NCBI GenBank assembly: GCA_004195025.1
Contig: SGBB01000008.1
Span: 1 to 64,000 of the forward strand
Length of the DNA stretch: 64,000 nucleotides
Direction: 5' to 3'
From: Candidatus Acidulidesulfobacter diazotrophicus
GTDB lineage: Bacteria; SZUA-79; Acidulodesulfobacterales; Acidulodesulfobacteraceae
Shown: in pieces, positions 1,002 through 63,139 of the stretch
Layout of the letters: the number at the start of each line of letters is the position of its first letter
Numbering within the stretch: the first letter of the stretch is position 1
Program-made: the position numbers and the translations under genes
Notes under the pieces: model-generated
Told to the model about the DNA's origin: nothing
Database searches by the model: none
What the model saw: the letters and a program-made list of their open reading frames with translations, nothing else

Positions 1002-1400
1002 TTAAAAAGTAATTGTTTGAGCTCCTTCCATAATGCTGAGAAATGCTGCGAGTCCAAGATGATCGTCTACAATATCTAAAAGGTCTTCTTTTTTTAAATC
1101 CAGCAAATCCATTACCATAGAGCAGGCATAAATTTTTAATCCGCCGAACATTTTTGCCTGATCTAACATATCGTAAAACATTTGCGCTTTTTTTTCTTTT
1201 AATTTTTCAAATATTTTGCCGCCCGTAAATTTATTTTCTTTTACATTTACTTTTAAAAAATTATAAATAGCATTCATAGTAATAAATATTGAAACTTCTA
1301 TCTCTGAAACAGCTGCTACCGACGCAATCATAGCTGCAATATGTGCTTTTTCATAATCTCCTGATTCAAGTATAATTGCTAATTTCTTAAATTCACTCAT
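1002..1400 (-). CDS. DsrE2-like sulfurtransferase (DsrE/F/H superfamily)
   Basis: A 132-residue single-cysteine protein. The cysteine (C93) is in the motif IYACSMVMDLL, matching the ACxMxMD active-site segment of DsrE2-type proteins, which mobilise sulfane sulfur together with TusA and rhodanese. The N-terminal LAIILESGDYEKAHIA strand-turn-helix is the usual Rossmann-like DsrE start. It lacks an obvious membrane segment. An AAGGAG site precedes the ATG. Adjacent to tusA with about 190 bases between them. Several DsrE subfamilies look alike at this resolution, so 'DsrE2-like' is the safest label. Confidence 0.78.
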   Translation of the reverse strand: MSEFKKLAIILESGDYEKAHIAAMIASVAAVSEIEVSIFITMNAIYNFLKVNVKENKFTGGKIFEKLKEKKAQMFYDMLDQAKMFGGLKIYACSMVMDLLDLKKEDLLDIVDDHLGLAAFLSIMEGAQTITF

Positions 1401-4003: not shown

Positions 4004-4161
4004 AATTATAATTTCATATTTTATTTAACAATTCAGTAAATTTGATAAATTGCGAACTTTATATCCGAAAATTTTAGGAAAATTATTTTTAAAAATGATA
4101 AAATAAAATATGATATACTATAACAATACTAAAAAGTAGCTTTTCGTAGGAAAAGTATTTT

Positions 4162-5733
4162 ATGCCCGAGAAAATATTCGCCAATTTGAATCCGTTGTCT
4201 TTTTTGCAAACCTTTATCGGCTTAAGTCTATCCCTGCCGGAAAATAATAAACTTGATACCACGGTAGATAAGATAGAGCGATTAGGTCTCAGCGCCGCAT
4301 GCTGTTTCGAAACTGCATACAGACAAGAGTTTAATTTAACAGGCGCCATTAATCACGATAAATGCATAGAAATGCTAATTGAAATTAAAAATAAGATTGG
4401 CGGCAACTTTTCCAGAACGTCAAGCCTGCCCAAAACGGTCCATCTTATCAATACCCGTTGTCCTTTCGGAGATGCGGTTAAACAGTCCCCTGAACTATGC
4501 AAAATGACCTCAAGCGTGTTGGGAGGGATAATAGCCCGAAATTTTGGCTATGCAAAAGTCGTCCTAAAGAAGAGAATAGCGGTAGGGGATTTAAACTGCG
4601 ATATACAAATCTTTGCAAACCCTTCGGACGGCGTAGATTATGACGGCGACGAATACCACTGGGAAATTGACAACGACGGCCATATTAAACATTCTCTTAA
4701 AAGTGAAAACAAAATAGCGGAAAACGGCTGGTGTATTTTAGATAATATGGAGGAAAAGAGGCCAATTCCTGATATAATTGCAATCTCGCAGGTAATGAAA
4801 GACATTTTGAAAATGGCAAAAAGGGTTGCAAATAGCTCAACTTCGGTTTTAATTACCGGCGAAACCGGCGCCGGTAAAGAGATTATAGCAAAAGTAATAC
4901 ATGCGCTAAGTCAGCGCTGGAAGAGACCGTTTATAGGGATAAATTGCGGGGCGATACCGGAAAATTTGGTGGAAAGCGCTCTGTTTGGCCACGAAAAGGG
5001 GTCATTTACCGATGCGTATCAGATACATCACGGATACTTCGAACGTGCGGAAGGCGGCACATTATTTCTTGATGAAATAGATTCGTTGTCTTTATCTACA
5101 CAGGTAAAGTTATTAAGAGTACTTCAGGAAAAAGAGTTCGAAAGGGTCGGCGGAAAACAATCTATATCATGTGATGTACGTATAATATCGGCTACAAATG
5201 CAAATCTCGAAAATTTGATATCTATTGATAGGTTTAGGCGGGATATTTATTACAGAATTAACGTAATCAGCCTGCATATACCTCCTCTGCGTCAGAGACC
5301 GGAAGATATTTTGCCTCTATCAAAACATATTCTTGGCAATCTTGGGATAAAATATGATATGAAGCCCATTCTCTCTTCTGAGGCAATTAATCAATTATAT
5401 ACTTATAATTGGCCCGGAAATGTCAGGGAGCTGGAAAATATATTAGAACGGTCGTTATTCTTATCTAATAATGGTGAAATCCTTGAAATTGCCATTCCAC
5501 TCGGTGCGGCTAAAGACAAATCTATCACAAGCGACTATACGAATATAAAATTGCAATCGATAAGAAAGCAAGCTATTAATGCAGCCGAACTACCCGTGCT
5601 TGAAAAAATTTTAACAGAATCTAACGGCAATGTTTCCAAAGTTGCAAAATATCTTGGCATCAGCACAAGAGCAATTTATAAAAAATTAAATACATTAAAA
5701 ATTAATCCCGCAACTTTCAGACATAAAAATTAA
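4162..5733 (+). CDS. Sigma-54-type transcriptional activator with N-terminal cysteine-bearing sensor domain
   Basis: 523 residues in three parts. Residues 1-165 form a sensor resembling the V4R/MetOD1 type of domain, with cysteines C100, C113 and C146 in LINTRCPFGD, ELCKMT and DLNCDI, which could bind a metal or ligand. Residues about 205-440 are the AAA+ domain: Walker A GETGAGKE (233-240), Walker B GGTLFLDE (298-305), and RFRRDIYYR arginine region. The GAFTGA loop reads GSFTDA (280-285), which departs from consensus at two positions. The C-terminus holds a Fis-type HTH (NVSKVAKYLGISTRAIYKKL). It is divergent from the carbonic-anhydrase-like gene, whose promoter is sigma-54 type, so it is the likely regulator. 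Sensor family name is tentative. Confidence 0.85.
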   Translation: MPEKIFANLNPLSFLQTFIGLSLSLPENNKLDTTVDKIERLGLSAACCFETAYRQEFNLTGAINHDKCIEMLIEIKNKIGGNFSRTSSLPKTVHLINTRCPFGDAVKQSPELCKMTSSVLGGIIARNFGYAKVVLKKRIAVGDLNCDIQIFANPSDGVDYDGDEYHWEIDNDGHIKHSLKSENKIAENGWCILDNMEEKRPIPDIIAISQVMKDILKMAKRVANSSTSVLITGETGAGKEIIAKVIHALSQRWKRPFIGINCGAIPENLVESALFGHEKGSFTDAYQIHHGYFERAEGGTLFLDEIDSLSLSTQVKLLRVLQEKEFERVGGKQSISCDVRIISATNANLENLISIDRFRRDIYYRINVISLHIPPLRQRPEDILPLSKHILGNLGIKYDMKPILSSEAINQLYTYNWPGNVRELENILERSLFLSNNGEILEIAIPLGAAKDKSITSDYTNIKLQSIRKQAINAAELPVLEKILTESNGNVSKVAKYLGISTRAIYKKLNTLKINPATFRHKN

Positions 5734-12092: not shown

Positions 12093-12461
12093 TTAATTTT
12101 TAAAAAATAGCCATTGATTCTCGCCTGCTTTTTCAAACTTTAGCAATGTATATTCGCCATTTATTTTTTTTCCTTTAAAAACTAAAATATATTTATCATT
12201 ATCTTTTTTTAATAAATCGTAAGTTCCTCTATCCCATATCTTGACAGTTCCGGCTCCATAATGCCCTTTAGGTATTATTCCTTCAAAATTTGCGTATGCA
12301 AGCGGATGGTCTTCAACTTTTATTGCAAGATGTTTTATGCCTTTATTTACAGGAGGCTCTTTGGGCAGAGCGAATGAAACTAAAACATTGTTTTCTTCAA
12401 ATCTTAAATCCCAATGCAAATGACTTGCATGATGTTCATGTATAACAAAAATTTTATCCAT
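12093..12461 (-). CDS. Stand-alone LigD-type 3'-phosphoesterase domain protein
   Basis: 122 residues that correspond to the phosphoesterase (PE) module of ligase D. Metal-binding and catalytic segments HEHHASHLHWDLR (near residue 8) and VEDHPLAYANFEG plus GAGTVKIWDRG are intact. In LigD this domain trims 3'-ribonucleotide/phosphate ends during non-homologous end joining. No Ku, polymerase or ligase domain is nearby, so it acts alone or with partners elsewhere. It lies downstream-proximal to the transaldolase/transketolase pair in the opposite functional class; co-transcription is possible but not obviously meaningful. Confidence 0.83.
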   Translation of the reverse strand: MDKIFVIHEHHASHLHWDLRFEENNVLVSFALPKEPPVNKGIKHLAIKVEDHPLAYANFEGIIPKGHYGAGTVKIWDRGTYDLLKKDNDKYILVFKGKKINGEYTLLKFEKAGENQWLFFKN

Positions 12462-12972: not shown

Positions 12973-13278
12973 CTACCAAGTAATAGATTTAGGAGAGTCA
13001 ATAGCAAGATCCACAAAACCCTGATAATCTACCGGCTTAGCTAAGGAAATTATCTCATCGCTTTTAATGCCTCTTGCTTCGGTATCTGGAGAAAGGTAGT
13101 ATATAGAGCACGTTTGTGAAGCATCGGAAACGTGTTTTTCAAACATTCCGCCCTTTTTTACAGCATAAATTCCATCCTCGGTAAAAAGAATTACATCGCC
13201 TTTTTTTATATATTTAAGACAACTACTTAAAGAAGATGTTTCATAAGGGGATTTTTTTACTATATTAAGCATTTGCAA
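12973..13278 (-). CDS. dsrH: DsrH, sulfur relay protein
   Basis: 101 residues, the usual DsrH/TusB length. The conserved cysteine is present at position 20 (SLSSCLKYIKKGD) followed by LFTEDGIYAV, the hallmark of the family. DsrE2F2H2 is a cytoplasmic heterohexamer that receives sulfur from TusA and passes it to DsrC. It is last in the dsrE-F-H set and the last gene of the dsr cluster. DsrEFH is typical of sulfur oxidisers, yet this cluster also encodes DsrD. Confidence 0.9.
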   Translation of the reverse strand: MQMLNIVKKSPYETSSLSSCLKYIKKGDVILFTEDGIYAVKKGGMFEKHVSDASQTCSIYYLSPDTEARGIKSDEIISLAKPVDYQGFVDLAIDSPKSITW

Positions 13279-13371: not shown

Positions 13372-13749
13372 TTAGAACGGCAATATGACTTTCATTTCGT
13401 CTATTCTGCTTATCAGATCAGCCCTTTTCAATACCTCAACCTCTGTAAGAAGATCTTCTTCTTTCATGCCTCTTTCTTCAAGCGATTCTTTTTCGACGTA
13501 TAAATGAGACACCTCAAAGTCATCTACAATAACAAGATAAGTCTGTGTAAAATTTTTTATATTTATCAAGGAGGGGTTCTGTCCTTTTTTTAAAGAAAGC
13601 ACTCCATCACCGATAAAAGCGACGCTAATGTCCTGTTCGTATGCGCTGAACATTATCATAGCTTCTATTGCTTCCTGCTCATAAATAGTTCCATAAGGGG
13701 CGGTTTTGCATAAAAACATAATTTTCGCTTTTGACTCTTGATCTACCAT
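13372..13749 (-). CDS. dsrF: DsrF, sulfur relay protein
   Basis: 125 residues. The start KIMFLCKTAPYGTIYEQEAIEAMI is the DsrF/TusC pattern (xxAPYG followed by a helix), and the central VAFIGDGVLSLKKGQ matches the family. The protein is a structural subunit of the DsrEFH hexamer and needs no catalytic cysteine. It lies between dsrE and dsrH with about 80-95 bases on each side. An intact ribosome site (AAGGAG) precedes the ATG. Confidence 0.9.
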   Translation of the reverse strand: MVDQESKAKIMFLCKTAPYGTIYEQEAIEAMIMFSAYEQDISVAFIGDGVLSLKKGQNPSLINIKNFTQTYLVIVDDFEVSHLYVEKESLEERGMKEEDLLTEVEVLKRADLISRIDEMKVILPF

Positions 13750-13831: not shown

Positions 13832-14182
13832 TTAGAATGTAATCAATCTATCGGATTCAATAGACAATTCGAGAAGTTGCCCTAATCCCGATATTTCCGC
13901 AGATCCGCTCACTGTATCATTCGTCAGCCCTCTTCTTTTTCCTGCAGCAACACAAACAACTAATCTAACCCCTTTTGATTTTAGATCATCCATATACAAT
14001 CTTATATTCCTCTCGCCTTGAGGAGGGTCTAAATACTTATTTGCTGCATAAACGGCATCATCGTAAAAAAATATGCCTGTAATCTCATGACCCTTTTTTA
14101 TTGCGGCTATGACAAAATTATAAGCGCTATCAAAAGCTTGAAAGTTATATGGGCTTTCTTTTACTAATATACCAAATTTCAT
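13832..14182 (-). CDS. dsrE: DsrE, sulfurtransferase subunit of DsrEFH
   Basis: 116 residues. The active-site cysteine C77 is in GVRLVVCVAAGKRRGL, as in DsrE/TusD, and the N-terminus FGILVKESPYN plus FFYDDAVYAANK match the fold. In sulfur oxidisers C77 accepts persulfide sulfur from TusA and hands it to CysB of DsrC. Because CysB is the only cysteine of the DsrC in this operon, this transfer remains chemically possible here. GGAGG precedes the ATG. Confidence 0.93.
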   Translation of the reverse strand: MKFGILVKESPYNFQAFDSAYNFVIAAIKKGHEITGIFFYDDAVYAANKYLDPPQGERNIRLYMDDLKSKGVRLVVCVAAGKRRGLTNDTVSGSAEISGLGQLLELSIESDRLITF

Positions 14183-14256: not shown

Positions 14257-15747
14257 TTAAAGAATTATTGCTGAGCTTACAAGCTGATGTACGCCACCCA
14301 CCATTTCCTTATCAAAGCCGTATAATGGATACATATTCGTAAACTGGGTCTTGCAAATTGCGCATATCAATGCAAGAAAATTAACGCCTTTATTGTCCAT
14401 TACCTCTTTGATGACCTGCATTTTAGGCATAGAACCTGCAATCCTTACATTCATTACTTCGTCCGTAAGTATTCCGCCGCCGGCACCGCAACAGTAGGTC
14501 TGTGCCTTGTTAGCCCCATCCCTTAATTCAAAAAAATGATTGGCGCATGCTTTTATTAGTTCTCTCGGTATAGTAAGTTGACCATCCTTCGTGTCGCCCA
14601 TTCTTGATGCACGCGCAACATTGCAGGAATCATGAAAGGTAACTATCTTATCATCGTTTGCCGATGGATCCATCTTAATAACCCCGTCTTTGATAAGACC
14701 TAGCGTAAAATCACATATATGCGTCGGCTGCTTGTATTTGCCGTCAAGGAAATCAAATGGTCCGTTCATCGTATTACTGAAATTATACAAAGCTCTCCAT
14801 GCATGACCGCATTCACCCACGACAACCCTCTTAACTTTAAGCCTTCTTGCCTCATCCCATATTCGTTTATTTATTTCCTTTGTATTCTTATAGCTGCCGA
14901 TAAACATACCAAAATTACCGGCTTCCGATGCATAAGAAGAAACAGTCCAGCTTATGCCGGCTTTATAAAATACCTTTGCATAACCGATTAGAGATTCCAT
15001 GTGCGGCATAGCAAAAAAATCTGCCGACGGAGGAACAAGAAGAACTTCGGCGCCTTCCACATCCATAGGAATTTTAATGTCCTTCCCCGTAGCTTCATTT
15101 ATTTCTTCTTCAAGATCATCTAACGTATTTCGGAGCGCCGCCGGAGGAATGCCAAGATTGTTTCCTATTTTGAAAACTTTATGAATTATTTCGGTAGCAT
15201 ATTTTTGTCCTATACCTATACCATCCATAATCTCCCTTGCAGCCATCGTTATTACCGCCGTATCTATTCCGTACGGACAGAAATAAGAACATCGTCTGCA
15301 TTCGGAACACTGATAGTAATACGTAAACCATTTTTTAATCATCTTTTCGCTAAAAGGCTCGGCATCTGCCAGACCCTTAAAAAGACTGCCTGCTGGTGTA
15401 AAATAGTATCTGTAAACCCTTCTCATTAATTCAGCCCTGCCTACAGGCATATTATTTGAATCGGCGGTACCCAAAAAAAATTGACATTTATCTGTACATG
15501 CACCGCACCTAACGCAAATATCCATATAAGTCTTAAGTGCTTTATTGTGAGTTAAAAGTTGTTTAAAGATTCCTACCGCTTTAGTTTCCCATCCATCTTC
15601 CAACGACGCTGGGAAGCCGATTGCCAGCATATCTTCCTTTATACCCGGATACATCTTTTCGTAAGCGCTTGCACCGGGAACAACTTTAGGAATCTTAATC
15701 TCACCTGTTAATATCGGAACTTTATAAGACGCTTTTATTTTAGCCAT
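14257..15747 (-). CDS. dsrK: DsrK, iron-sulfur subunit of the DsrMK complex (HdrD-like)
   Basis: 496 residues. Two ferredoxin-type [4Fe-4S] motifs are intact: C78/C81/C84/C88 (CVRCGACTDKC) and C147/C150/C153/C157 (CSECRRCSYFCP). The C-terminal half is a heterodisulfide-reductase-like domain with GECGHAW, FHDSCN and TYCCGAGGG, which would hold the non-cubane catalytic cluster. DsrK faces the cytoplasm and is thought to exchange electrons between quinol (through DsrM) and the DsrC trisulfide. It starts 35 bases after dsrM, so the two are co-transcribed. The DsrC in this operon lacks one of the two cysteines of that substrate. Confidence 0.94.
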   Translation of the reverse strand: MAKIKASYKVPILTGEIKIPKVVPGASAYEKMYPGIKEDMLAIGFPASLEDGWETKAVGIFKQLLTHNKALKTYMDICVRCGACTDKCQFFLGTADSNNMPVGRAELMRRVYRYYFTPAGSLFKGLADAEPFSEKMIKKWFTYYYQCSECRRCSYFCPYGIDTAVITMAAREIMDGIGIGQKYATEIIHKVFKIGNNLGIPPAALRNTLDDLEEEINEATGKDIKIPMDVEGAEVLLVPPSADFFAMPHMESLIGYAKVFYKAGISWTVSSYASEAGNFGMFIGSYKNTKEINKRIWDEARRLKVKRVVVGECGHAWRALYNFSNTMNGPFDFLDGKYKQPTHICDFTLGLIKDGVIKMDPSANDDKIVTFHDSCNVARASRMGDTKDGQLTIPRELIKACANHFFELRDGANKAQTYCCGAGGGILTDEVMNVRIAGSMPKMQVIKEVMDNKGVNFLALICAICKTQFTNMYPLYGFDKEMVGGVHQLVSSAIIL

Positions 15748-15782: not shown

Positions 15783-16559
15783 TTAAAGACTCAAATCTTT
15801 TGCATTTGGCTTATAATATCTTTTTTCCTCCGGATTATCCGTCATATAACGGGTAGGACTAAAAAATACGCCCACAAAATGCATAACTTTGCTAAAGGGT
15901 ATATATGCGACAAGTATGAGGATTAATGAATAATGAACAAGAAAATACGGATTGCTAGGTATATTTATAGGATGAAATGTTGCAATACCGTTAATAAACG
16001 GATCTAATCTGTTATCAATTTTCGTTAGAGCGGAAGCAGAAATTAAAAAATTCATAGACAATCCTGCAATAGCTATCATCATTAAAATAATAAGTATTAA
16101 ATAATCCGAAAAAATAGAGATAATTTTAACTCTGTCAACGATCATCCTGCGAAAAAGCAGATAAAATAGCGAAAGAAACATTAAAATACCGAAAACTATG
16201 CCTGCATTCACAAAGAGCGGATACCATGAAGGCAGCGAAACAACACCGTTATGATAATGATAAATAAAATGCCGAGCAAAATGCAGCAATATAAGAATAA
16301 TAAATGAAACATGGAATATATATCCTGCAACCCATGTAGGTTTATTTGCTCTGAATAAACTCTTAAATAATAAAATTTCGCTTGCAACCCTGCCGACTGA
16401 ACCTGCTTTTGTCTGAGGTGCAGGCGTAAGTGCAATCTTTACCGGCATTGGCGTCTTGGCATACACGATTATTTTAATCAAAACACCGATTATAAAAATA
16501 GCTGCTGCAAAATATGTTAATAAAACATACACGCCGCTCAAGAAGTTTAAATCTATCAT
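15783..16559 (-). CDS. dsrM: DsrM, membrane cytochrome b subunit (NarI-like, short form)
   Basis: 258 residues with about five membrane helices (near 10-32, 76-98, 113-136, 149-172, 197-220). Candidate heme b ligands lie in the helices: H83, H93/H97, H199 and H217. It is a quinone-linked NarI-like cytochrome. Its length resembles the short DsrM of sulfur oxidisers more than the longer forms of many sulfate reducers (family knowledge). It heads the dsrMKEFH block, 354 bases downstream of dsrC. dsrJ, dsrO, dsrP and dsrT are not in the window. Confidence 0.87.
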   Translation of the reverse strand: MIDLNFLSGVYVLLTYFAAAIFIIGVLIKIIVYAKTPMPVKIALTPAPQTKAGSVGRVASEILLFKSLFRANKPTWVAGYIFHVSFIILILLHFARHFIYHYHNGVVSLPSWYPLFVNAGIVFGILMFLSLFYLLFRRMIVDRVKIISIFSDYLILIILMMIAIAGLSMNFLISASALTKIDNRLDPFINGIATFHPINIPSNPYFLVHYSLILILVAYIPFSKVMHFVGVFFSPTRYMTDNPEEKRYYKPNAKDLSL

Positions 16560-16832: not shown

Positions 16833-16922
16833 AAAGACATATTTTTATTTATACACAATTTTAACTAAGCTGCGACAGAATTTGTTTAATATTATACTAA
16901 AGACATTTTTTATTTATACACA
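16833..16922. repeat. 24/25-bp direct repeat copying the 3' end of dsrC
   Basis: AAAGACAT-TTTTT-ATTTATACACA at 16899-16922 spans the last Cys and Val codons, the stop codon and the following bases of dsrC. An almost identical copy (one inserted base) lies at 16833-16857, 66 bases away. It suggests a local duplication at the end of dsrC. Confidence 0.7.
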
Positions 16923-17255
16923 GCCAGTAGGTTTTGGAAGACCTGCTATCATGGCAAGCTGCTTAGCCGGCCCATCTGGAAAAAGTTCGTAAATAAACTT
17001 ATTTGCTTCTTTTTTGTCCTCAATATTTTCAAGCTTTTGTACCTCTTTTATTAGAGATTTAATTGCAGGAGCAACCTGAAACTTTGAAAAATAGTCTCTT
17101 ATCCAATCAATTAACTCCCAGTGCTTCGCGGTAAGTTCTATACCTTCTTTCTTGGCAATATAAACAGCCATTTCCTTATTCCAATTATCTAAGTTCTGTA
17201 AGTATCCTTCGTCATCAGTTTCTATTACCTTACCGTCAAATTCAAATGATGCCAT
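16914..17255 (-). CDS. dsrC: DsrC-family protein lacking CysA
   Basis: 113 residues with the DsrC fold and C-terminal arm. The arm reads PAKQLAMIAGLPKPTGCV: the penultimate cysteine (CysB, C112) is present, but the position 11 residues before it, CysA in bona fide DsrC (PAKQACxxAG), is alanine, codon GCC read directly from the minus strand. It is the only cysteine in the protein. The segment with the extra residues before YELFP that separates DsrC from shorter forms is present (EVQKLENIEDKKEANK). DsrC carries sulfite-derived sulfur as a CysA-CysB trisulfide between DsrAB and DsrMK; CysB alone supports only TusE-like persulfide transfer. Lies 61 bases after dsrL. Confidence 0.92.
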   Translation of the reverse strand: MASFEFDGKVIETDDEGYLQNLDNWNKEMAVYIAKKEGIELTAKHWELIDWIRDYFSKFQVAPAIKSLIKEVQKLENIEDKKEANKFIYELFPDGPAKQLAMIAGLPKPTGCV

Positions 17256-17316: not shown

Positions 17317-19026
17317 TTAAATCATATCAATATAGCCGCAAGGACAACTTTCTGCGCATTTTTTACACCCGTTGCATGTTTCGAGATGAAACTCAAAATG
17401 CTGACCTTTAGGCAATTTTTTAACCACACTTTGAGAACAATATTCAAAACAGCTGCCGCAATCAAAACACATACCGCAGCTCATACATCTCTTTGCCTCC
17501 AAAATTAAATCATTTAAATCGAGATTATTTAAAATCCCTTCAAAATCATTAATTCTAACTGAAGGCTCTCTTGAACTTCTTTTATGTCTCTCAGCATTTT
17601 GAAAATATGCTATATACATATTTTTACCTTCGCGGTTTACTGCATCGTCATACTTTATAACTGCTCTTTCATCTTTCTTGATTGACTCCCCGCTTAATTT
17701 TTTATGTATTGAATATGCAGCATATCTACCCATTCCTATTGCGTCGGTTACTAAACCAAATTTTAAAATGTCTCCGCCGGCAAATACTTTATTCTCGTTG
17801 GCCACTAAATAGTTTTCATCCACATTCAGGAATTCATTATTTGGATTTTTTGTAAGTTTTTCAAGACCCTTATAATCAGGTTTTTGACCGAAAGAATAGA
17901 TAAGAGTATCCAATTTTAACATTAATTCTTGACCGTTTTCTATTAAAATAGGATGTACCCTGCCAGATGCATCTTTTTCAGAAAGTTTCATTTTTTTAAG
18001 GCGAACCGCAACCGCTTTTCCATTTTCAACGATAATTTCGTCTAAAGCAAATAAAAATTCAAATTTAATTCCCTCGCTATTGCCTTCCTTAACTTCGGTA
18101 GAACCCTTTTCCTCTATTTCCGAAGCATCGCTTAATGTTCCTTTGTTGTAAATAAATGTTACATTAGCGCCGAGTCTTTTTGCAACCATTCCTGCGTCCA
18201 TAGCGCTGTCGCTTCCTATGACCACAACCTCTTTCCCTGCATCCTTAATTTCTCTTAATGCAGCCTTTTCAAGAAATTCAATGCCTGTAAAAACATTAGG
18301 CGCATCGGCACCTTTCATTTTCATCTTAATAGGTTCATGTGTCCCGATTGCAACAAATACGGCATCATACTCGGATTTAAGTTTATCTATAGTTACATCG
18401 GTTCCGATATTTACACCTGTTTTTATTTCAACGCCAAGGTCTTTAATCCGATTAACCTCCGCATCTATAATATTTAAAGGAAGTCTAAAACTCGGTATGC
18501 CGTATCTTAGATAACCTCCTGTTTCAGGAAGTTTTTCATAAATTGTAACATTATATCCCCTTATTGCAAGATGATAGGCACATGAAAGCCCTGCTGGTCC
18601 GCTGCCGATAATTGCTATCCTTTCCTTTTTTGGAATGTCGGTCATCTTCTTAAAATGTAAATTGTTTTTTATTCCATAATCACCGACAAACATCTCAATA
18701 GAGTTAATGGCAACAGGTTTATCCTTAAACTTACGATTGCACTCTTCTTCGCATGGATGAGGGCAAACCCTCCCTGTTATGGACGGCAAAGGATTTGACT
18801 CGGTAAGCATATAAAACGCTTCTTTAAGAGATTCATCAATCGGCCGTTCATAAGACTCGCTTTGAGCAATAAATTGTATATAATCCCTTACCTTTGTTCC
18901 ATTAGGACAAGTATCCATGCATGGAGGTTTCTTCTCTACATATTTCGGTCTAAAGGGTGACTGCTGCATTCCTCCGCCTGAGCTTGACACTTTTAGCGGT
19001 TTTTTGACTTTTTTTAATTCAAGCAT
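17317..19026 (-). CDS. dsrL: DsrL, NAD(P)H:acceptor oxidoreductase of the Dsr system
   Basis: 569 residues, glutamate-synthase-beta-like. N-terminal Fe-S cysteines are at C36, C40, C88, C92 and C96; the FAD motif IIGSGPAGLSCA starts near residue 139; a second nucleotide site begins VVVIGSDSAMDAG. The C-terminus has two clusters: an unusually cysteine-dense CMSCGMCFDCGSCFEYC (C514-C530) and a classic CNGCKKCAESCP (C551-C561). DsrL links pyridine nucleotide to DsrAB; in phototrophic sulfur oxidisers it runs toward NADH formation, while forms found with DsrD are thought to serve reduction. It lies between dsrD and dsrC in one transcription unit. Confidence 0.92.
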   Translation of the reverse strand: MLELKKVKKPLKVSSSGGGMQQSPFRPKYVEKKPPCMDTCPNGTKVRDYIQFIAQSESYERPIDESLKEAFYMLTESNPLPSITGRVCPHPCEEECNRKFKDKPVAINSIEMFVGDYGIKNNLHFKKMTDIPKKERIAIIGSGPAGLSCAYHLAIRGYNVTIYEKLPETGGYLRYGIPSFRLPLNIIDAEVNRIKDLGVEIKTGVNIGTDVTIDKLKSEYDAVFVAIGTHEPIKMKMKGADAPNVFTGIEFLEKAALREIKDAGKEVVVIGSDSAMDAGMVAKRLGANVTFIYNKGTLSDASEIEEKGSTEVKEGNSEGIKFEFLFALDEIIVENGKAVAVRLKKMKLSEKDASGRVHPILIENGQELMLKLDTLIYSFGQKPDYKGLEKLTKNPNNEFLNVDENYLVANENKVFAGGDILKFGLVTDAIGMGRYAAYSIHKKLSGESIKKDERAVIKYDDAVNREGKNMYIAYFQNAERHKRSSREPSVRINDFEGILNNLDLNDLILEAKRCMSCGMCFDCGSCFEYCSQSVVKKLPKGQHFEFHLETCNGCKKCAESCPCGYIDMI

Positions 19027-19082: not shown

Positions 19083-19322
19083 TTAACCTTTATTATCAGG
19101 AAGGGTTAAGAAACTCCCTCCTGCATATCCATAGACTAACTTCTCGTCATTCATTATTTCTTTTAAAACGCTTTTAATATCGTCTTTTGATAAGCCCTCG
19201 TCGGCAAATTCTTTTTCCATCTCTTTTACTATATCTACGGGCTTAAATCTTTTTTTGCCGTCATATTCTTTTACAAGCCCGACAATCTTATCTTCTAACT
19301 TTTTTTTTGTTTCATCGGTCAT
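19083..19322 (-). CDS. dsrD: DsrD, winged-helix activator of sulfite reductase
   Basis: 79 residues, mostly helical with a winged-helix pattern ending YGYAGGSFLTLPD, the length and position (directly after dsrB, 22 bases) of DsrD. Sequence identity in this family is low, so the call rests on size, fold pattern and location. DsrD stimulates DsrAB activity and is normally found only in organisms using the pathway reductively. Its presence next to dsrL and in the same cluster as dsrEFH is notable. Confidence 0.88.
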   Translation of the reverse strand: MTDETKKKLEDKIVGLVKEYDGKKRFKPVDIVKEMEKEFADEGLSKDDIKSVLKEIMNDEKLVYGYAGGSFLTLPDNKG

Positions 19323-19344: not shown

Positions 19345-20430
19345 TTAAAATCTTACTTGGGACGAATAATTCATAGTGGTTTCGGCAAGTCTGAAATCGT
19401 CCACATGATATTTTGTAAATTCAAATCCAGTTATTTTAAAGAACCTAGTCCAGCCTATCCTTTCAATCCATTCTACAACCCTTTCTCCAGGTTCAGCTCC
19501 ATTTTTATAAGCGGTTATTATTGTCTTTACTGCCTCTACAACCTTAGGCCATCTTGGCGGGTCATTTGGTATAAAAGGGATGACTAATTTGGAAAATGTC
19601 GGCTTCGTCCTTGCATTTGAAACCTTTCCGCCTACCCATATGGAAATACCGTCGTTTAATGAGTCGGCAATAGGCATTGCAGGACAAACCGTATAGCAGC
19701 TTCCGCAAAAAACGCAGGTTTCATCATTTATTTTTACAGTCTGCTTACCGTCTATAGTATCCGGTCTGATAGAATTTGTAGGGCATGCTGCTATAGTGCT
19801 CGGTATTTCACAGAGATTTAAAATTTTTTCACTGTCTATTTTCGGGACTTTCCTGTGCATTCCCATTATCGCAATGTCCGATGAAGCAACAGAACCGCAC
19901 ATATTAAGACAACACGCAAAAGCTATTCTAACTTTAGACGGAAGTTTATCCTCCACAAAATACTCATATAATTCGTCCATTACAGCCTTTACTACGCCGG
20001 ATGCATCGCTTGCCGAAGTATGACAGTGAACCCAACCTTGCGTGTGAACGATATTTGCAACGACATTTCCAATACCGCCGACATTATATCCTAATTTTTC
20101 AAGGTCTTTCTTAAGCGGCTCTATGTTATTTTCGTCATCAAGTAAAAATTCAACGTTATTTCTTGTGGTAAATCTTAAATATCCTCCGCAATATTTATCG
20201 GCCATATCGCACAAATCTCTCACAAAACTGCCGCTAACCAAACGGGGAGAACCCATCCTTACGGTATATATCTTGTCCCCATTCTCAGCGACATGCACCA
20301 TGCTGCCGGTATCCAATATTTCATGGTAAGCCCACTTGCCATAATTTTTTTTAATTACAGGCGGTAAATAATCATGAAAATCATGAGGACCTATATCTGT
20401 TATTCTTTTCTTTTTAACCTCTTCAGGCAT
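19345..20430 (-). CDS. dsrB: Dissimilatory sulfite reductase beta subunit
   Basis: 361 residues. The segment TQGWVHCHT followed by ASDASG (C136) is diagnostic of DsrB, and the siroheme/[4Fe-4S] cysteines appear as [10 protein letters not shown] (C173, C174, C178). The inserted ferredoxin domain carries C216 (AACPT) and [12 protein letters not shown] (C239, C242, C245, C249). DsrB holds the catalytic siroheme of the alpha2-beta2 enzyme and docks the DsrC arm. It follows dsrA by 74 bases. All expected ligands are intact. Phylogenetic placement as reductive or oxidative needs an alignment. Confidence 0.97.
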
Positions 20431-20504: not shown

Positions 20505-21692
20505 TTAGTCTTCGTCATCCGTAAACTTTATAAACGGGTTACCTCTTGGATGATTAACCATTTCAGGTATAGGTTCTAATCCTATTCCTTCAAGGAAAGT
20601 TACGACTCCGACTCTCTGCATAAGCTCTCCTATCCTTTCTCTGCTGACGCCGTATTCATCCCAGAACTCCCACATATTGCTGATTAACCCTTTCAGCCAT
20701 TCATAGTCGTTTTTGCTGTCTTCTAAAACATCGTAAAACGGAACAAGCATCATACCTAATCTTGGACCTGTAACCAAAGGAGCTTTAGCGCCTAATAAAA
20801 TAGAAAGACCTTTTTCATCACCGGATCTTAAAGCCTTCGGCATTTCATTTATACAATGCATACACTTAACGCAATTAGAATCATCTATGACTAGATTCTC
20901 TCCTTCAAACAACATGCACTTAGTCGGACATTTATCTAAAACATATTTTTGAACATTAAATTTTTTAACATAATTTTTTACTTCATCTTGATTTATTTTT
21001 ATTTTATCCTTCCATGTTCCTATAAAAGCCATGTCCGACCTTGAAGCGGCCGCAACGCAATCATTTGAGCATCCGGAAAATTTAAGTTTAAACTTATAAT
21101 TAAATGAAGGTCTATGCATTTCATCCTGGAATGCCTGCGTCATGTCATAGCATATCTGGAGTGTATCATAATTTGCAAACTCACATCTTGCAGGTCCGAC
21201 ACAACAGGATGGCGTACGAAGATCTGATCCGCCGCCGCCTAAATCGAATCCTAATTCTGCACATTTCTGAAAAGCTTCTTCTGCTTCCGCTTGCCATACT
21301 CCTAATATTTGAATATCCCCTGTTGATCCATGAAGATTTAAAAGTCCGCCAGCATGTTGTTCCGCTATATCGGCAATTTTTCTAAGAATATCGGAATTAT
21401 AAAAAAACCCTGAGGTTTGATTAACTCTCATAGAGTGACATTCTTTAACGCCTGGGTATTTTTCGGGAAATTCTGTAAATCTTCCGACAAGTCCTGCGCC
21501 GTATCCCCTTACCCCGGCCATACCGCCATGCTTCCAATGGGTGATCTTGTCTCTATAGGAATTTTCCACCTGTCCTAAGAGATCCTCCGTCCTTTCGCTT
21601 TTTTCAGCTGCTCTTTCAATTTCCCTAACAAAACTTACCCACTTCCCCTTTTTTAGTTCATCAAGAAGCGGAGTTTCATGTTTCTTACCCAT
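20505..21692 (-). CDS. dsrA: Dissimilatory sulfite reductase alpha subunit
   Basis: 395 residues. Siroheme/[4Fe-4S] ligands are SCCVGPARC (C164-x5-C170) and SGCSNDC (C208-x3-C212). The ferredoxin domain has CPTKC (C255, C259) and CVKCMHC (C274, C277, C280). The cofactor-binding surroundings RTPSCC and GSTGDIQ are conserved. With DsrB it reduces sulfite by six electrons or runs in reverse. AGGAGG lies just upstream of the ATG. A 266-base leader with a plausible promoter separates it from dsrN, so dsrABDL-C can be transcribed independently of zwf-dsrN. Confidence 0.97.
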   Translation of the reverse strand: MGKKHETPLLDELKKGKWVSFVREIERAAEKSERTEDLLGQVENSYRDKITHWKHGGMAGVRGYGAGLVGRFTEFPEKYPGVKECHSMRVNQTSGFFYNSDILRKIADIAEQHAGGLLNLHGSTGDIQILGVWQAEAEEAFQKCAELGFDLGGGGSDLRTPSCCVGPARCEFANYDTLQICYDMTQAFQDEMHRPSFNYKFKLKFSGCSNDCVAAASRSDMAFIGTWKDKIKINQDEVKNYVKKFNVQKYVLDKCPTKCMLFEGENLVIDDSNCVKCMHCINEMPKALRSGDEKGLSILLGAKAPLVTGPRLGMMLVPFYDVLEDSKNDYEWLKGLISNMWEFWDEYGVSRERIGELMQRVGVVTFLEGIGLEPIPEMVNHPRGNPFIKFTDDED

Positions 21693-21958: not shown

Positions 21959-23440
21959 TTATTTTATTTTTAAAAAATCTTTTTTGATTTCTTTTATAAA
22001 ATGCACCCAATTTTTAAACCATCCTGGCGAGGATGGAGAAAATATATGCGTATAACTTGCAATTATATTTTTATAAATAATACCGTCGCTTTCTCCGTTT
22101 ACCCCAAATCCCTTTTCCACGTTAAAAGCAAAATTCATGTTATTTGACGACGGTGTTTCTAAATATGAATGGTGGAACTCATGTCCTTTAAGAAATTTAA
22201 TCTTATTAAACCATAATCGGCTATTTTTATCATAAAAGGCAGTCGTTAATTTGGTATAGCCATGCCCTTTCGGTTTTTTTGTCCATTTTACATCGGCATC
22301 TATTGCCCCCACCATTTCATACATAATATCATCGCAGGAAATACTTTTACAAAGATACATAAGACCGCCGCATTCCGCATATACGGGAAGACCGATTTCG
22401 ATCTTTTCCCTTATATCCATTCTTAAATTACTATTTGCCTCTAAATCCTTACAAAAAATCTCGGGGAACCCCCCTCCTATATAAAGGGCATCAACTTTAG
22501 GCAGGCCATCATCTTTAAGCGGGGAAAATCTGATAATTTCGCAACCCAAATTCTCAAGCGTTTCAATATTTTCATTATAATAAAAATTAAATGCGCCGTC
22601 ATAGGCTATCCCAATTTTTACTCTTTCTCTAACCCTGCCGGATTCTATTTTTTTAGGAGGTGCGACGTGTGCAGCAGATGCAGTAATAATATTATATTTT
22701 AAATTTACATCGGCATAAGATTTGGCTGCTATTTTGGATATATTTATGATACCTTCTAAATCAATATAATTTGAAATTTTAGAGGATATATTTGAAACAA
22801 GATTTTCAACGTCTTCTCCGCTAAGTGTCGACATCAGACCGAGATGTCTCTGTTTTATAGATAATTCCGGGTCGTTAGGGATATTGCCTACTACCTTTAA
22901 ATCGGTATAATAATTAATTGCATTTATTAGATTTTTTTCATGTCTTTTACTATGAATCTTATTTAGTATTATCCCCTTTATATTCACCTTTTTGTCGAAA
23001 TTTCTAAATCCTAAAAGCAATGGGACAACTCCTCTGTTAAATTCTCCGACATCTATCACAAGAATGACGGGAAGCCTTAAAAGTTTTGCCATAGATGCGT
23101 TTGAAGATTTACCGTACAGATCTATAGAGTCATACAGCCCATGGTTTCCTTCTACAATGTTTATATCTGAATTAAGCGAATGTTCTAAAAAATGTTTTTT
23201 TATTTTATCTTTGGACATAAAATAAAAATCCAGATTATAGCAGTTTTTACCCGTAGCTATGCTTAGCCACATCGGATCTATAAAATCAGGACCTTTTTTA
23301 AAAGACTGGACTATAAGCCCTTTATTTCTTAGCAGGCGCATTATAGCGATAGAAATGGTCGTTTTGCCTGAATTTCTTTTCGCTGCAGATATATAAAATC
23401 CTTGCATTTTATAATTTTTATTTTCAGAAATCTTTTCCAT
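21959..23440 (-). CDS. dsrN: DsrN, siroheme amidase (CobB/CbiA-like)
   Basis: 493 residues. The N-terminal P-loop domain contains SAAKRNSGKTT and KKGPDFIDP, and the C-terminal class I glutamine amidotransferase domain contains IGGGFPEIF and the nucleophile in YAECGGLMYLC, plus a catalytic His segment near GHEFHHSY. This is the cobyrinic acid a,c-diamide synthase architecture; beside dsrAB such proteins are DsrN, which amidates siroheme for sulfite reductase. No other cobalamin genes are nearby, which supports DsrN over CobB. AGGAA precedes the ATG, and its first codons overlap the end of the upstream unknown gene, indicating translational coupling. Confidence 0.9.
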   Translation of the reverse strand: MEKISENKNYKMQGFYISAAKRNSGKTTISIAIMRLLRNKGLIVQSFKKGPDFIDPMWLSIATGKNCYNLDFYFMSKDKIKKHFLEHSLNSDINIVEGNHGLYDSIDLYGKSSNASMAKLLRLPVILVIDVGEFNRGVVPLLLGFRNFDKKVNIKGIILNKIHSKRHEKNLINAINYYTDLKVVGNIPNDPELSIKQRHLGLMSTLSGEDVENLVSNISSKISNYIDLEGIINISKIAAKSYADVNLKYNIITASAAHVAPPKKIESGRVRERVKIGIAYDGAFNFYYNENIETLENLGCEIIRFSPLKDDGLPKVDALYIGGGFPEIFCKDLEANSNLRMDIREKIEIGLPVYAECGGLMYLCKSISCDDIMYEMVGAIDADVKWTKKPKGHGYTKLTTAFYDKNSRLWFNKIKFLKGHEFHHSYLETPSSNNMNFAFNVEKGFGVNGESDGIIYKNIIASYTHIFSPSSPGWFKNWVHFIKEIKKDFLKIK

Positions 23441-58192: not shown

Positions 58193-59044
58193 TTATTGAA
58201 AAAAGGCGGATAGGCTGTTTAAATCAAGAACCTTTTTTCTGGCAATAAGCCAAAATCTCATAATATGTTTTTCAAGTTCCATAGAATTCGTTGCTAAAAA
58301 TCTTACTACAATACCATGAGGCGAAAACGCTGAAGCGCCGCCATGCACATTAATTATGTTCTCTGTTTCCATCTTATCTAATTCCTCCTGCATTAAACCG
58401 CATAGTTCTTTTTCAATAATAGGATTGTGAAAGACAAAATACATAGTTGCCATAATATTGTAGCCTTCCATAAATCCAATTTCATTATAATTTATTTCCT
58501 CAGGCTGTATAAACATCCTATCCGTAATTATAAGCTCGTTATCATAAATTATTTCAAGCGCACTTTTATAATATTTAAAATGAAAATGCTCACCTCTTGT
58601 ATTTCTTCCAGTAACAAAAAAATCAAGCAGAAAAACAATAGCATTTTCCTCCATTATAATATTCAATTTCTGTTCATAGGCACTGCCTGCAAAAGGAATA
58701 TTTAACTTAGGCATATATTCAAGTATGGAATTACTTTTCGCGATAAATTTTATGTTTTGGATAGACGGATGTTCTATTGTCCTATATATCTTTGTTGCAG
58801 ACGGTGTTGATATAAAAACATGCGTATCTTTTTCAGCAATTGCAATAATATTTATGACATCACCACCTACTAAACCACCAGTAGGATTGACAAGATAAAA
58901 ATAGGCTATTCCAGTATCATCCAGATAAAATGGCCGCGATATAGCCATAGGCATCTTTGAAAAAGCATCCGATAAAATAACTTTATCTTTCTTCTTCTTA
59001 AACTGAAGATATAGTTTACCGTTTTTACCTACCGTAGAATTCAT
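58193..59044 (-). CDS. ureD: Urease accessory protein UreD
   Basis: 283 residues. YFYLVNPTGGLVGGDVI near residue 48 and STPSATKIYRT near 78 are the UreD hallmarks, with FFVTGRNTRGEHF later. UreD (UreH) scaffolds the UreFG complex during nickel insertion. It is the last gene of the ureABCEFGD set, 254 bases after ureG, with A/T-rich DNA containing no evident gene between them. Confidence 0.92.
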   Translation of the reverse strand: MNSTVGKNGKLYLQFKKKKDKVILSDAFSKMPMAISRPFYLDDTGIAYFYLVNPTGGLVGGDVINIIAIAEKDTHVFISTPSATKIYRTIEHPSIQNIKFIAKSNSILEYMPKLNIPFAGSAYEQKLNIIMEENAIVFLLDFFVTGRNTRGEHFHFKYYKSALEIIYDNELIITDRMFIQPEEINYNEIGFMEGYNIMATMYFVFHNPIIEKELCGLMQEELDKMETENIINVHGGASAFSPHGIVVRFLATNSMELEKHIMRFWLIARKKVLDLNSLSAFFQ

Positions 59045-59298
59045 TTTGATATTATAAATTATTGATAAATTAAAGATTAAAGATTAAAGATGTATAAAAT
59101 CTGTTTACAATCCCGTATAAAAAATGTTTTTATTACATATCATATATAGATTAAATAGTGTTATATTTATATATACAGTGTTATATTGGAATTGCAACAT
59201 TTTTTTATACACAAAGCGAAGTATTTTAAGATAGTCCTATTGCGTGTTCAGTAAATTATAGCAGGTTCAATTATGCCGATAATGCATCAGCAGCGGTA

Positions 59299-59919
59299 TT
59301 ATGTAAATAGTATATTTTTTTTTATCCATCCGATTATCTCGTCCAAACCCTTATCTATTTTTAAATTTGTAAAAATAAAAGGTTTCCCCGACCTCATTTT
59401 TTTAGAATCCCGTTCCATAACCTCAAGACTTGCCCCTATATAAGGAGCAAGGTCTATTTTATTTATCACCAGCAGGTCAGATCTTGTAATGCCTGGACCG
59501 CCTTTTCTCGGTATCTTATCTCCTGCAGAAACATCTATGACGTATATGGAACTATCAACAAGTTCGGGGCTAAAGCTTGCGGCAAGATTGTCGCCGCCGC
59601 TCTCTATAAAAATAATATCAAGCTCGGGAAATGTTTCAATTAATTGATCAACAGCTTCTTGATTAATTGATGTATCCTCCCTTATTGCAGTATGGGGACA
59701 TCCTCCCGTCTCAACGCCGACAATCCTTTCTTCCGGCAGCGCCTTAGCCATTGTAAGAAACTGGGCATCTTCTTTTGTATAAATATCGTTTGTAACAACC
59801 GCAATAGAAAACTCTTTTTGCATGTATTTACATAACCTTTCTATAAGAGCTGTCTTGCCTGAACCTACAGGACCGCCTATACCTATTTTTACAACATTGC
59901 CTTTTACTCTTTTATGCAT
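59299..59919 (-). CDS. ureG: Urease accessory GTPase UreG
   Basis: 206 residues. P-loop [15 protein letters not shown] near residue 12, the nickel site CPH motif in [26 protein letters not shown] and the NKID guanine specificity motif [15 protein letters not shown]-class GTPase delivering nickel to urease. It lies 167 bases after ureF. Confidence 0.97.
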
Positions 59920-60086
59920 AATTTTAATCCTTAATAATCTTTAGTTAATATAAACAGATTTTTAATTCTGCAATTTGAGTTAATAAATATGCTTATAAAT
60001 AAATATAAGTGTTATTTTCATACAACGGCTTATAGCAACAGACATTTGGCTCAAATGAAGGTCATATTGTAAAATATTTCACCGAT

Positions 60087-60776
60087 TTATGACCTGAATA
60101 GTCTTGTGTATAGCGTCTCATGTTTCATCCCCATTATTTCAATACCAGGCGTAAAAGTATAAATATCCTGTTCTCCATAATTCATTATTTCTGAAACCGA
60201 AGTTGACAAAAAACCTTTGAACGTATCTATAGTCTTCTGCCCTTCTGTTTGTCCAAGCGGTATTAACCTTAAACCTGCACCTACAATTCCCGATACAATA
60301 TTATACAGATATGCTAATATGGCGCTATAAATATCAATTCCTAAAACATTGCATGCCAAAGCATACACGACTATATGATGGCCGTAAATTGTATTATTTT
60401 CAATCTTTTGTGAATACCTATTTGTAAATTCCGATGAATAAAGTTGACGCATTATTTTTAAAAGCTGCCTGCCCATCTGAATATCGCCTTCCCTAAATTC
60501 TCTTACAACCTTCATAGAATGAATAATCTTATCATAATAGATAACAGCCTCTAAATCACTCTTATTTATTGCCTCCATGCAAAGTTTTAATATAAGCGCA
60601 TCGCAATGTTTTATAGAACCTGCAATAAGATTTTTTAAAAAAATATTAAATCCTGTCGAATTAGAGATAGTACCCTTAGAAACGTACGTTTCAAGCCCGA
60701 AAGAATAAGCATACAAACCTGACGGAAACAGCGTATCCGTCAATTGAAACAGCGAAAGCAAAGCTCCATCATTCAT
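60087..60776 (-). CDS. ureF: Urease accessory protein UreF
   Basis: 229 residues, mainly helical. LFQLTDTLFPSGLYAYSFGLE at the N-terminus, and GHHIVVYALACNVLGI and RLIPLGQTEGQ are conserved in UreF. It bridges UreD and UreG in the activation complex. It begins six bases after the ureE stop, indicating co-translation. Confidence 0.94.
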   Translation of the reverse strand: MNDGALLSLFQLTDTLFPSGLYAYSFGLETYVSKGTISNSTGFNIFLKNLIAGSIKHCDALILKLCMEAINKSDLEAVIYYDKIIHSMKVVREFREGDIQMGRQLLKIMRQLYSSEFTNRYSQKIENNTIYGHHIVVYALACNVLGIDIYSAILAYLYNIVSGIVGAGLRLIPLGQTEGQKTIDTFKGFLSTSVSEIMNYGEQDIYTFTPGIEIMGMKHETLYTRLFRS

Positions 60777-60782
60777 AATTCG

Positions 60783-61232
60783 TCATTCATGTATATGTGC
60801 ATGCCTCTGCGTTAACGGTTCAAATATCGCTTTTATTCTATTATATTCTATCCCTTTTTTATTTAACCAAACCTCTACCTGACGGCTATAAAGCATAAAA
60901 ATACCGTCTTTATTTATTGCTACCGGCAGATGCATATTGCCGATAACATAGGCAATATTAGCCGAAGCGACTAAATCCTTGTGTTTAATCAAAATTAGAT
61001 CTTCTTTTTTAGTTTCAACCTCTATATAAGTTGTATCATCTTTGTAAATAATATCCCCGCTGTAAAGTATTGTCCCTGTCGGCAATGCAATCCCAATTTC
61101 AATGCCGCCTTTTGATACGATACGCTGGCGGGATTTTCTCCGCTCTTCCCAATCAAGGACTATAACATCTTTATTTTTACCGTTAACATCTACATTTGAC
61201 AATATTTGATTTACCACCACAAAGTTACTCAC
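60783..61232 (-). CDS. ureE: Urease accessory protein UreE
   Basis: 149 residues. Metal-binding region: YVIGNMHLPVAINKDGIFM followed by the C-terminal RHAHIHE. The His-rich tail found in some UreE proteins is reduced to three histidines. It is a nickel metallochaperone for UreG. It lies about 190 bases after ureC. Confidence 0.93.
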   Translation of the reverse strand: MSNFVVVNQILSNVDVNGKNKDVIVLDWEERRKSRQRIVSKGGIEIGIALPTGTILYSGDIIYKDDTTYIEVETKKEDLILIKHKDLVASANIAYVIGNMHLPVAINKDGIFMLYSRQVEVWLNKKGIEYNRIKAIFEPLTQRHAHIHE

Positions 61233-61420
61233 GCCGTAATCCCTTAAAATATAATAAACATAATATATTAAATTAAAACATTATATAAAAATTGAATAAT
61301 AAATACATTGTATAATAATAATATAATAAATATATTATCTATCATAAAATTAACAAAAACAATAACAATAACAACGCATAAAAAAATAATATAGTAATAC
61401 ATTATCCGCTGAAGAACGCT

Positions 61421-63139
61421 TTAAAATAAAAAATATCTTTGCGCCATTGGTAAAATAGATGCGGGTTCAGACGTAATCACTTTCTTATCTGCTTTGACTA
61501 TGTATGTCTCTGGATCTACCGCTATAGACGGAAGATAGGAATTATTTATCATATTTTTTTTCCCGATATTGCGGCAGTTCTTCACGTAAGCTATTTTTTT
61601 TTGCAATCCTAATTTTTGCGCCGTTTTATTATCATAAGCAGCCTTTGATATAAAAGTATAGGATGTGGAATATACCGCCTTCCCGAAAGCCCCGAACATA
61701 GGTCTTAAAACCATAGGTTGCGAAGTCGGTATAGAAGCATTGGCATCGCCCATCTGAGCAAATGCAATAAAACCGCCTTTTATAATCATAAAAGGTTTCA
61801 CTCCAAAGAATGCAGGCTCCCAAAGCACTATATCGGCAAGTTTCCCAACTTCTATCGAACCCACATAATCTGCTATCCCATGTGCTATTGCAGGATTTAC
61901 CGTATATTTGGCTACATACCTTTTTACCCTGAAGTTATCATTATCGCCTTTTTCTTCTTTTAATCTGCCAAACTCCTTCTTCATCTTATCTGCCGTCTGC
62001 CATGTTCTTATTATAACTTCGCCAACTCTGCCCATAGCCTGCGAATCGGAAGACATCATACTAATTGCCCCCACATCATGCAGCACATCTTCAGCCGCAA
62101 TAGTCTCCGCCCTTATCCTTGAATCTGCAAAGGCGACATCTTCAGGTACATTAGGATCAAGATGATGACATACCATAAGCATATCTAAATGCTCATCCAT
62201 AGTGTTGATTGTAAATGGCATAGTAGGACTTGTTGAAGACGGTAATACATTTGGTAAGCCGCATACTTTTATAATATCAGGCGCATGCCCGCCTCCGGCT
62301 CCTTCCGTATGATAAGTGTGTATAGTCCTTCCTTTAAACGCTGTTATCGTATCTTCTACAAATCCTGCCTCATTGAGCGTATCCGTGTGTATAGCCACCT
62401 GAACATCATAACGGTCAGCTACGGAAAGACACGCATCTATGTTTGACGGCGTTGTACCCCAATCTTCATGCAGCTTTAAACCTATCGCTCCCGCTTCAAT
62501 CTGCTCCCCTAAAGACTCAGGGTTTGCACTATTCCCTTTGCCGAGAAATCCCATGTTTATAGGAAATTCCTCCGCAGATTCAAGCATTCTTTGAATATTC
62601 CACTTGCCGGGGGTGCAAGTAGTCGCATTAGTACCTGTAGCAGGACCTGTACCTCCGCCAATCATCGTGGTAATACCTGAACATAATGCCTGTTCAATTT
62701 GCTGCGGCGCTATAAAATGCACGTGCGAATCAATACCGCCCGGCGTTACAATCATATTTTCGCCTGATATAACTTCCGTAGAAGCACCGATTATCATATT
62801 AGGACTAACCATATCCATGGTATCGGGGTTGCCTGCTTTACCGATGCCGAAAATCTTTCCGTCTTTGATTCCTATATCAGATTTTACTACACCCCAATGG
62901 TCTAATATAATCACATTTGTGATAACCATATCTAATGCATTTCCATCACTTGTGATTCTTGCGGATTGTCCCATACCGTCTCTAACTACCTTGCCCCCGC
63001 CAAATTTAGCCTCATCGCCGTAATTAGTAAAATCTTTTTCAATCTCAACAAATAAATTCGTATCGGCGAGCCTTACTTTGTCGCAGACGGTAGGACCATA
63101 CATATCCGCATACTGCTTTCTTTTTATTTTTACTGTCAT
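61421..63139 (-). CDS. ureC: Urease alpha subunit
   Basis: 572 residues, the usual length. Nickel ligands and active-site elements: HVHF in [12 protein letters not shown], the carbamylated lysine in [33 protein letters not shown], the catalytic flap [13 protein letters not shown], and SSDSQAMGR. All key residues are present, so an active enzyme hydrolysing urea to ammonia and CO2 is expected. It overlaps nothing and lies three bases downstream of ureB. Confidence 0.98.

Follow-up and report, generated by a model that had tools for sequence, protein, structure and literature searches.

A DsrC without CysA fixed in the dsr operon of the SZUA-79 family

The window analyzed here is a 64,000-nucleotide stretch of Candidatus Acidulidesulfobacter diazotrophicus (contig SGBB01000008.1, positions 1 to 64,000), from a draft genome of 47 contigs (2.46 Mb, 98.3% complete) within the family SZUA-79 / Ca. 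Acidulodesulfobacterales, among whose named members is isolate SZUA-79. It carries a minus-strand operon in the order dsrA-B-D-L-C-M-K-E-F-H (Table 1). The initial annotation had placed dsrAB and dsrMK in one cluster with dsrC; this held, with dsrD, L, E, F and H there as well, and the criterion of linkage to dsrAB and dsrMK is met by the window dsrC. The order dsrABDLCMK-EFH is invariant across SZUA-79 operons, and dsrEFH adjoins in every one with enough contig. The YNK variant of DsrL has been described for Ca. Acidulodesulfobacterales (PMC7596348). By score (window versus L032 and L036-L038) the operon seems mosaic: dsrA, B, D and L are nearest, after a congener, to one SZUA-79 subgroup, and dsrC, M, K, E, F and H score closest to a different one. 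Recombination between dsrL and dsrC is a possibility suggested by these scores. A stand-alone DNA ligase D 3'-phosphoesterase domain protein lies just downstream of dsrH (12093-12461, minus strand). Elsewhere in the window are a further DsrE2-like protein outside the operon (1002-1400, minus strand), a nickel-transporter-like ORF (1474-2469) and an apparent urease cluster (58193-63139, minus strand; UreC-like 61421-63139 plus accessory-like ORFs, judged on translations only).

Table 1 Coordinates of the dsr genes and of the codons discussed in the text
Feature	Position	Strand	Basis
CobB/CbiA-type amidase adjoining dsrA, probable dsrN (siroheme amidation)	21959..23440	-	Dsr context, PMC10504309
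dsrA, conserved cluster cysteines retained	20505..21692	-	TIGR02064 E=5e-145; alignment
DsrA Ala110 codon; Trp or Phe in CysA-bearing systems	21363..21365	-	alignment
dsrB	19345..20430	-	TIGR02066 E=8e-149
dsrD, diverged	19083..19322	-	Pfam DsrD E=0.1 only; aligns with DsrD of other dsr loci
dsrL, type-2-like NAD(P)H oxidoreductase, YNK replacing YRR	17317..19026	-	profile search
dsrC, CysA-less, 113 aa, single Cys	16914..17255	-	Pfam, TIGR03342, PDB alignments
DsrC Ala101 codon at CysA position, GCC	16953..16955	-	ORF and alignments
DsrC Cys112 codon (CysB), TGT	16920..16922	-	read from ORF
dsrM, membrane cytochrome b subunit	15783..16559	-	profile search
dsrK, HdrB/D-like subunit, CCG-domain cysteines intact	14257..15747	-	profile search; alignment
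dsrE, active-site Cys retained in all relatives covering that site	13832..14182	-	profile search; alignment
dsrF	13372..13749	-	profile search
dsrH	12973..13278	-	profile searches

The dsrC product ends GPAKQLAMIAGLPKPTGCV. It is recovered by the family profiles (Pfam DsrC, E=3e-39; TIGR03342, E=4e-40) and by PDB 1yx3 (E=8e-32), and it meets the criterion of a DsrC/TusE family domain with the conserved C-terminal arm. Its sole cysteine is the penultimate residue, Cys112 (CysB), which is invariant across all aligned relatives. The residue 11 positions before CysB is Ala101, to which cysteine is aligned in the five top-ranking DsrC structures of the PDB (1yx3, 1sau, 2xsj, 2v4j and 1ji8); Cys to Ala requires two base changes. 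A trisulfide-forming DsrC is expected to have CysA, a criterion that the window protein does not meet, and the presence of a single cysteine excludes an intramolecular trisulfide. The ORF and the PDB alignments bear out the initial annotation, which had CysA lost, CysB kept and no other cysteine in the protein; the codon region that it gave, 16956-16960, is off by a few bases. It had offered two ways out. One, a second DsrC elsewhere, failed: the whole window genome has one PF04358 match at E<=1, and no copy in the family has CysA. The other, a system running without the intramolecular trisulfide, held for the absence of that bond, while what replaces it is not shown.

Alanine occupies the CysA position in all 25 C-terminus-bearing DsrC copies from 23 family genomes, and all 25 share the C-terminal pattern GPAKQLA-x-x-[AS]-GLPKPTGCV. 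Related genomes that always carried both cysteines would have refuted the initial annotation; none in the family keeps both, and the same change is found throughout. No CysA-bearing copy was found in any of the 23 family genomes with DsrC, several of which are 99-100% complete. Three Ala codons are used among the distinct family genes (GCC 10, GCT 8, GCA 7), and dN/dS over 60 family pairs lies between 0 and 0.13, which shows strong purifying selection on dsrC. The varied codons together with the low dN/dS argue that the loss of CysA is old and maintained, and not a read error. Sequencing error was rejected on the further grounds that many independent assemblies agree and that two base changes would be needed. 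The family assemblies come from many sites. One MAG (isolate clean576, G019) holds two dsr operons of different subgroups (L034 and L042), both CysA-less; this may be a real arrangement or a binning mixture.

The absence of CysA is fixed in the only DsrC, and co-occurrence ties this protein to dsrAB and dsrK. Five congeners of the same genus as the window (G001-G005) have no dsrC, dsrA, dsrK or dsrH and keep mnmA, which argues that the window DsrC serves Dsr and not tRNA thiolation. The entire dsr module is absent from these five genomes. Within the family, dsrC is present with the dsr genes and absent without them, save for fragmentary exceptions: G025, where the contig stops shortly past dsrA and no dsrC was seen, and G029 (59% complete), with dsrC and dsrK seen and dsrA not recovered. 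Three criteria for TusE can be set beside these data. A single CysB with CysA replaced by Ala, Ser or Thr is met by the window protein; being needed alongside MnmA is not met, given mnmA in the dsrC-less congeners; and occurrence without dsrAB is not met in the family. Against the NCBIfam TusE equivalog NF008562 the protein scores 114.5 bits, under the 191-bit cut-off. No relative was found in the viral contigs searched; phage-labelled matches are less than 60% identical, and three carry the annotation TusE or tRNA 2-thiouridine synthesizing protein.

A survey of dsrA across 386 genomes recovered 26 dsrA-bearing genomes outside the family. DsrC was found in 25 of these, and CysA was present in one or more copies in 24 of the 25. 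The sole exception is G262, a Desulfurella-type genome from another class, with the operon order dsrA-B-D-L-C-M-K. Its dsr-locus DsrC ends GPARQLVRYAGLSKPTGCV, with Val at CysA, and its solo copy ends GPAKKAAKIAGIKKPVGCV, with Ala. Three more genomes of that class share the Val-type dsr-locus DsrC, two of them also the Ala-type extra copy; Val is thus found in 4/4 Desulfurella-type dsr-locus copies and Cys in the 18/18 loci used for comparison. In L103, the place beside dsrK that dsrEFH takes in SZUA-79 holds two genes of the DsrE family (4050-4472 and 4488-4838, minus strand), one of them DsrE2-like. In Desulfurella amilsii, DsrK, M, C, B and A bear the locus tags 1429, 1430, 1431, 1434 and 1435, with a second DsrC at 2056 (PMC5317093), and we infer from gene content and order that the G262-type locus is likely the D. 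amilsii locus. In the phylum of G051 (Desulfovibrio-like), the matches inspected all carry TGY at CysA; in another phylum 9/9 matches have it, and a pattern search of a third, small phylum gave no CysA-less match. In the DsrC tree, the SZUA-79 and Desulfurella-type sequences group together in a single clade (100/100) that lies on the side of the CysA-bearing proteins. A split (99/99) divides it from eight of the nine TusE-like rows; E. coli TusE sits on a long branch and is not resolved. With midpoint rooting, loss of CysA is likelier than ancestral absence, and the direction is not proven.

We looked among the partner proteins for a stand-in cysteine, one that CysA-less systems conserve and other systems lack. 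The alignments of DsrA, B, D, K, M, L, E, F and H offered no convincing candidate. A DsrM cysteine is present in 82% of SZUA-79, but neither the window nor the Desulfurella type has it, and C470 of DsrK is shared with some CysA-bearing systems; both candidates were rejected. All cluster cysteines of DsrK are kept, the CCG-domain set included, as are the conserved cluster cysteines of DsrA and DsrB. A difference was seen in DsrA, at the last position of the CDIW motif. This position is aromatic in 18/18 CysA-bearing loci (Trp 15, Phe 3) and Ala, Gly, Ser or Cys in 22/22 CysA-less loci (ADIA-, VDIG- or ADIC-like; drawn from the window and from L031-L052, L103, L139 and L140), and the switch from aromatic to small residue tracks CysA loss in 40/40 loci. 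The cysteine three residues before the site is absent from all 22 CysA-less loci. In A. fulgidus DsrA, residue 119/120 is the one that lines up with the Trp. The putative role of this Trp is to block the channel to, or cap, the second, non-catalytic siroheme, for which no support was found in the open-access literature searched. The paired changes in DsrA and DsrC may reflect descent from a single ancestral lineage, without a functional connection. Among the accessory proteins, the equivalent of DsrH Cys20 is lost in 15 of 18 SZUA-79 sequences (relatives L032-L052), and the window keeps it. A. vinosum needs this cysteine in vivo.

In the established scheme, DsrC receives a sulfur intermediate from DsrAB, and its trisulfide form is the substrate that DsrMK(JOP) reduces (PMC10504309, PMC10229431), with CysA closing the cycle in both the A. 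vinosum and the sulfate-reducer models (PMC3397948, PMC13293266). CysB is the only one of the two cysteines to bind sulfur in A. vinosum, where both DsrE-to-CysB transfer and persulfide binding are CysA-independent (PMC3397948). Neukirchen et al. report for these lineages only oxidative-type dsrMK, without JOP, and a DsrC basal to the oxidative type; the word cysteine is absent from their main text (PMC10504309). The reading that we favor, with moderate confidence, takes the window protein for a genuine DsrC from which CysA was lost and which carries sulfur on CysB alone, inside a complete Dsr module (dsrABDLCMK, with EFH here too); the chemistry and its direction are inferred, and the model rests on sequence alone, without biochemistry. 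In the reductive direction, DsrL-fed DsrAB would leave the partly reduced sulfur on CysB in persulfide form. The protein has no second thiol, so this persulfide would need either direct reduction by DsrK, at its HdrB-like iron-sulfur site, or the thiol of another molecule; in the latter case DsrK would act after a bond had formed to a second DsrC, a DsrE-type cysteine or a small thiol. In the oxidative direction, the same single-cysteine carrier could feed DsrAB from DsrE. The direction of sulfur flow may vary. Possibly no carrier is needed at all, given that DsrAB alone releases some sulfide plus thionates (PMC10229431).

Other explanations deserve weighing. One is a mainly oxidative, TusE-like relay, in which DsrEFH loads CysB with a persulfide and reverse DsrAB oxidizes it to sulfite; no trisulfide would arise or need reducing, and CysA would be dispensable. 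The adjacent dsrEFH, the retained DsrE cysteine, the CysA-independent transfer to CysB, the oxidative-type DsrMK reported for the clade and the sulfide oxidation proposed for the order (PMC6776010) all speak for it. Against it stand the presence of dsrD and reductive-type dsrAB, the Desulfurella-type operon without dsrEFH type I (yet with DsrE-family genes), the reduction of sulfur and thiosulfate by D. amilsii (PMC5317093) and the retention of CysA by A. vinosum-type oxidizers, and we consider it unlikely. Also unlikely is that the DsrL-fed DsrAB of this clade performs the whole six-electron reduction to sulfide, with DsrC only an activator or side relay. The dsrL in the operon, the loss from DsrA of the aromatic residue that putatively caps the second siroheme and the sulfide released by DsrAB without DsrC would fit. 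The arm and CysB of DsrC, dsrM and dsrK are all kept, however, and dsrC and dsrK are missing where dsrA is missing.

Two further possibilities are very unlikely. That the protein is a TusE for tRNA 2-thiouridine merely sited in a dsr operon gains from its single-cysteine form, as in E. coli TusE, and from its similarity to NF008562; it is contradicted by the congeners that keep mnmA without dsrC, by the score below the cut-off, by the loss of dsrC together with the dsr genes, and by a tree that groups it with CysA-bearing DsrC and not with most TusE-like rows. That a CysA-bearing second DsrC was missed, or that the sequence is wrong, has only the draft state of the genome in its favor, and the absence of any such copy from the family and the agreement of the assemblies already contradict it.

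The CysB-only carrier can be taken further. In a bolder reading, possible but less likely than not, sulfite reduction or oxidation would proceed with no trisulfide on DsrC: the second siroheme site of DsrAB would be altered, DsrC has one cysteine, and DsrMK (no JOP) would take as its substrate a persulfide or a disulfide between molecules. Shared operon ancestry would account for the fixation of this form in two unrelated bacterial groups. The trisulfide of the two-cysteine DsrC is the accepted link of sulfite reduction to energy conservation, and both cysteines are commonly regarded as obligatory. CysA is stated to go with DsrAB, occurring only in organisms with DsrAB and typical of them, and being almost always Ala, Ser or Thr where DsrAB is lacking (PMC3397948). 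The SZUA-79 clade breaks this rule: it has DsrAB, DsrC and DsrMK with a CysA-less DsrC fixed, and the intramolecular trisulfide is not universal. For this family of acid-mine bacteria a sulfite-reductase pathway with a CysA-less DsrC is shown at the sequence level; for the cultured genus Desulfurella it is inferred. That D. amilsii appears to share the system would make what DsrMK reduces testable. An earlier report of CysA absence in Desulfurella is possible, as subscription journals lay outside our literature search. For annotation, the residue alone cannot file a single-cysteine DsrC as TusE.

Comparison with known systems places the window protein among three relatives. With the DsrC proteins that serve the DsrAB/DsrMKJOP trisulfide pathway in D. 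vulgaris, A. fulgidus and A. vinosum it shares fold family, arm, CysB and the partners dsrA, B, M and K, but CysA is Ala here (Val in the Desulfurella type) and the pathway's intramolecular bond cannot form. E. coli TusE likewise has a single catalytic cysteine at the penultimate position; it lies outside any dsrAB operon and ends PVKCI, whereas the window DsrC ends PTGCV and its type is a fixed member of the dsr operon, missing wherever the operon is missing. The D. amilsii DsrC (DESAMIL20_1431, whose locus also holds DsrK, M, B and A) comes nearest, being by inference CysA-less, of the same gene order and in the same clade; it differs in Val instead of Ala at CysA, in the lack of dsrEFH type I and in the presence of a second, solo CysA-less DsrC.
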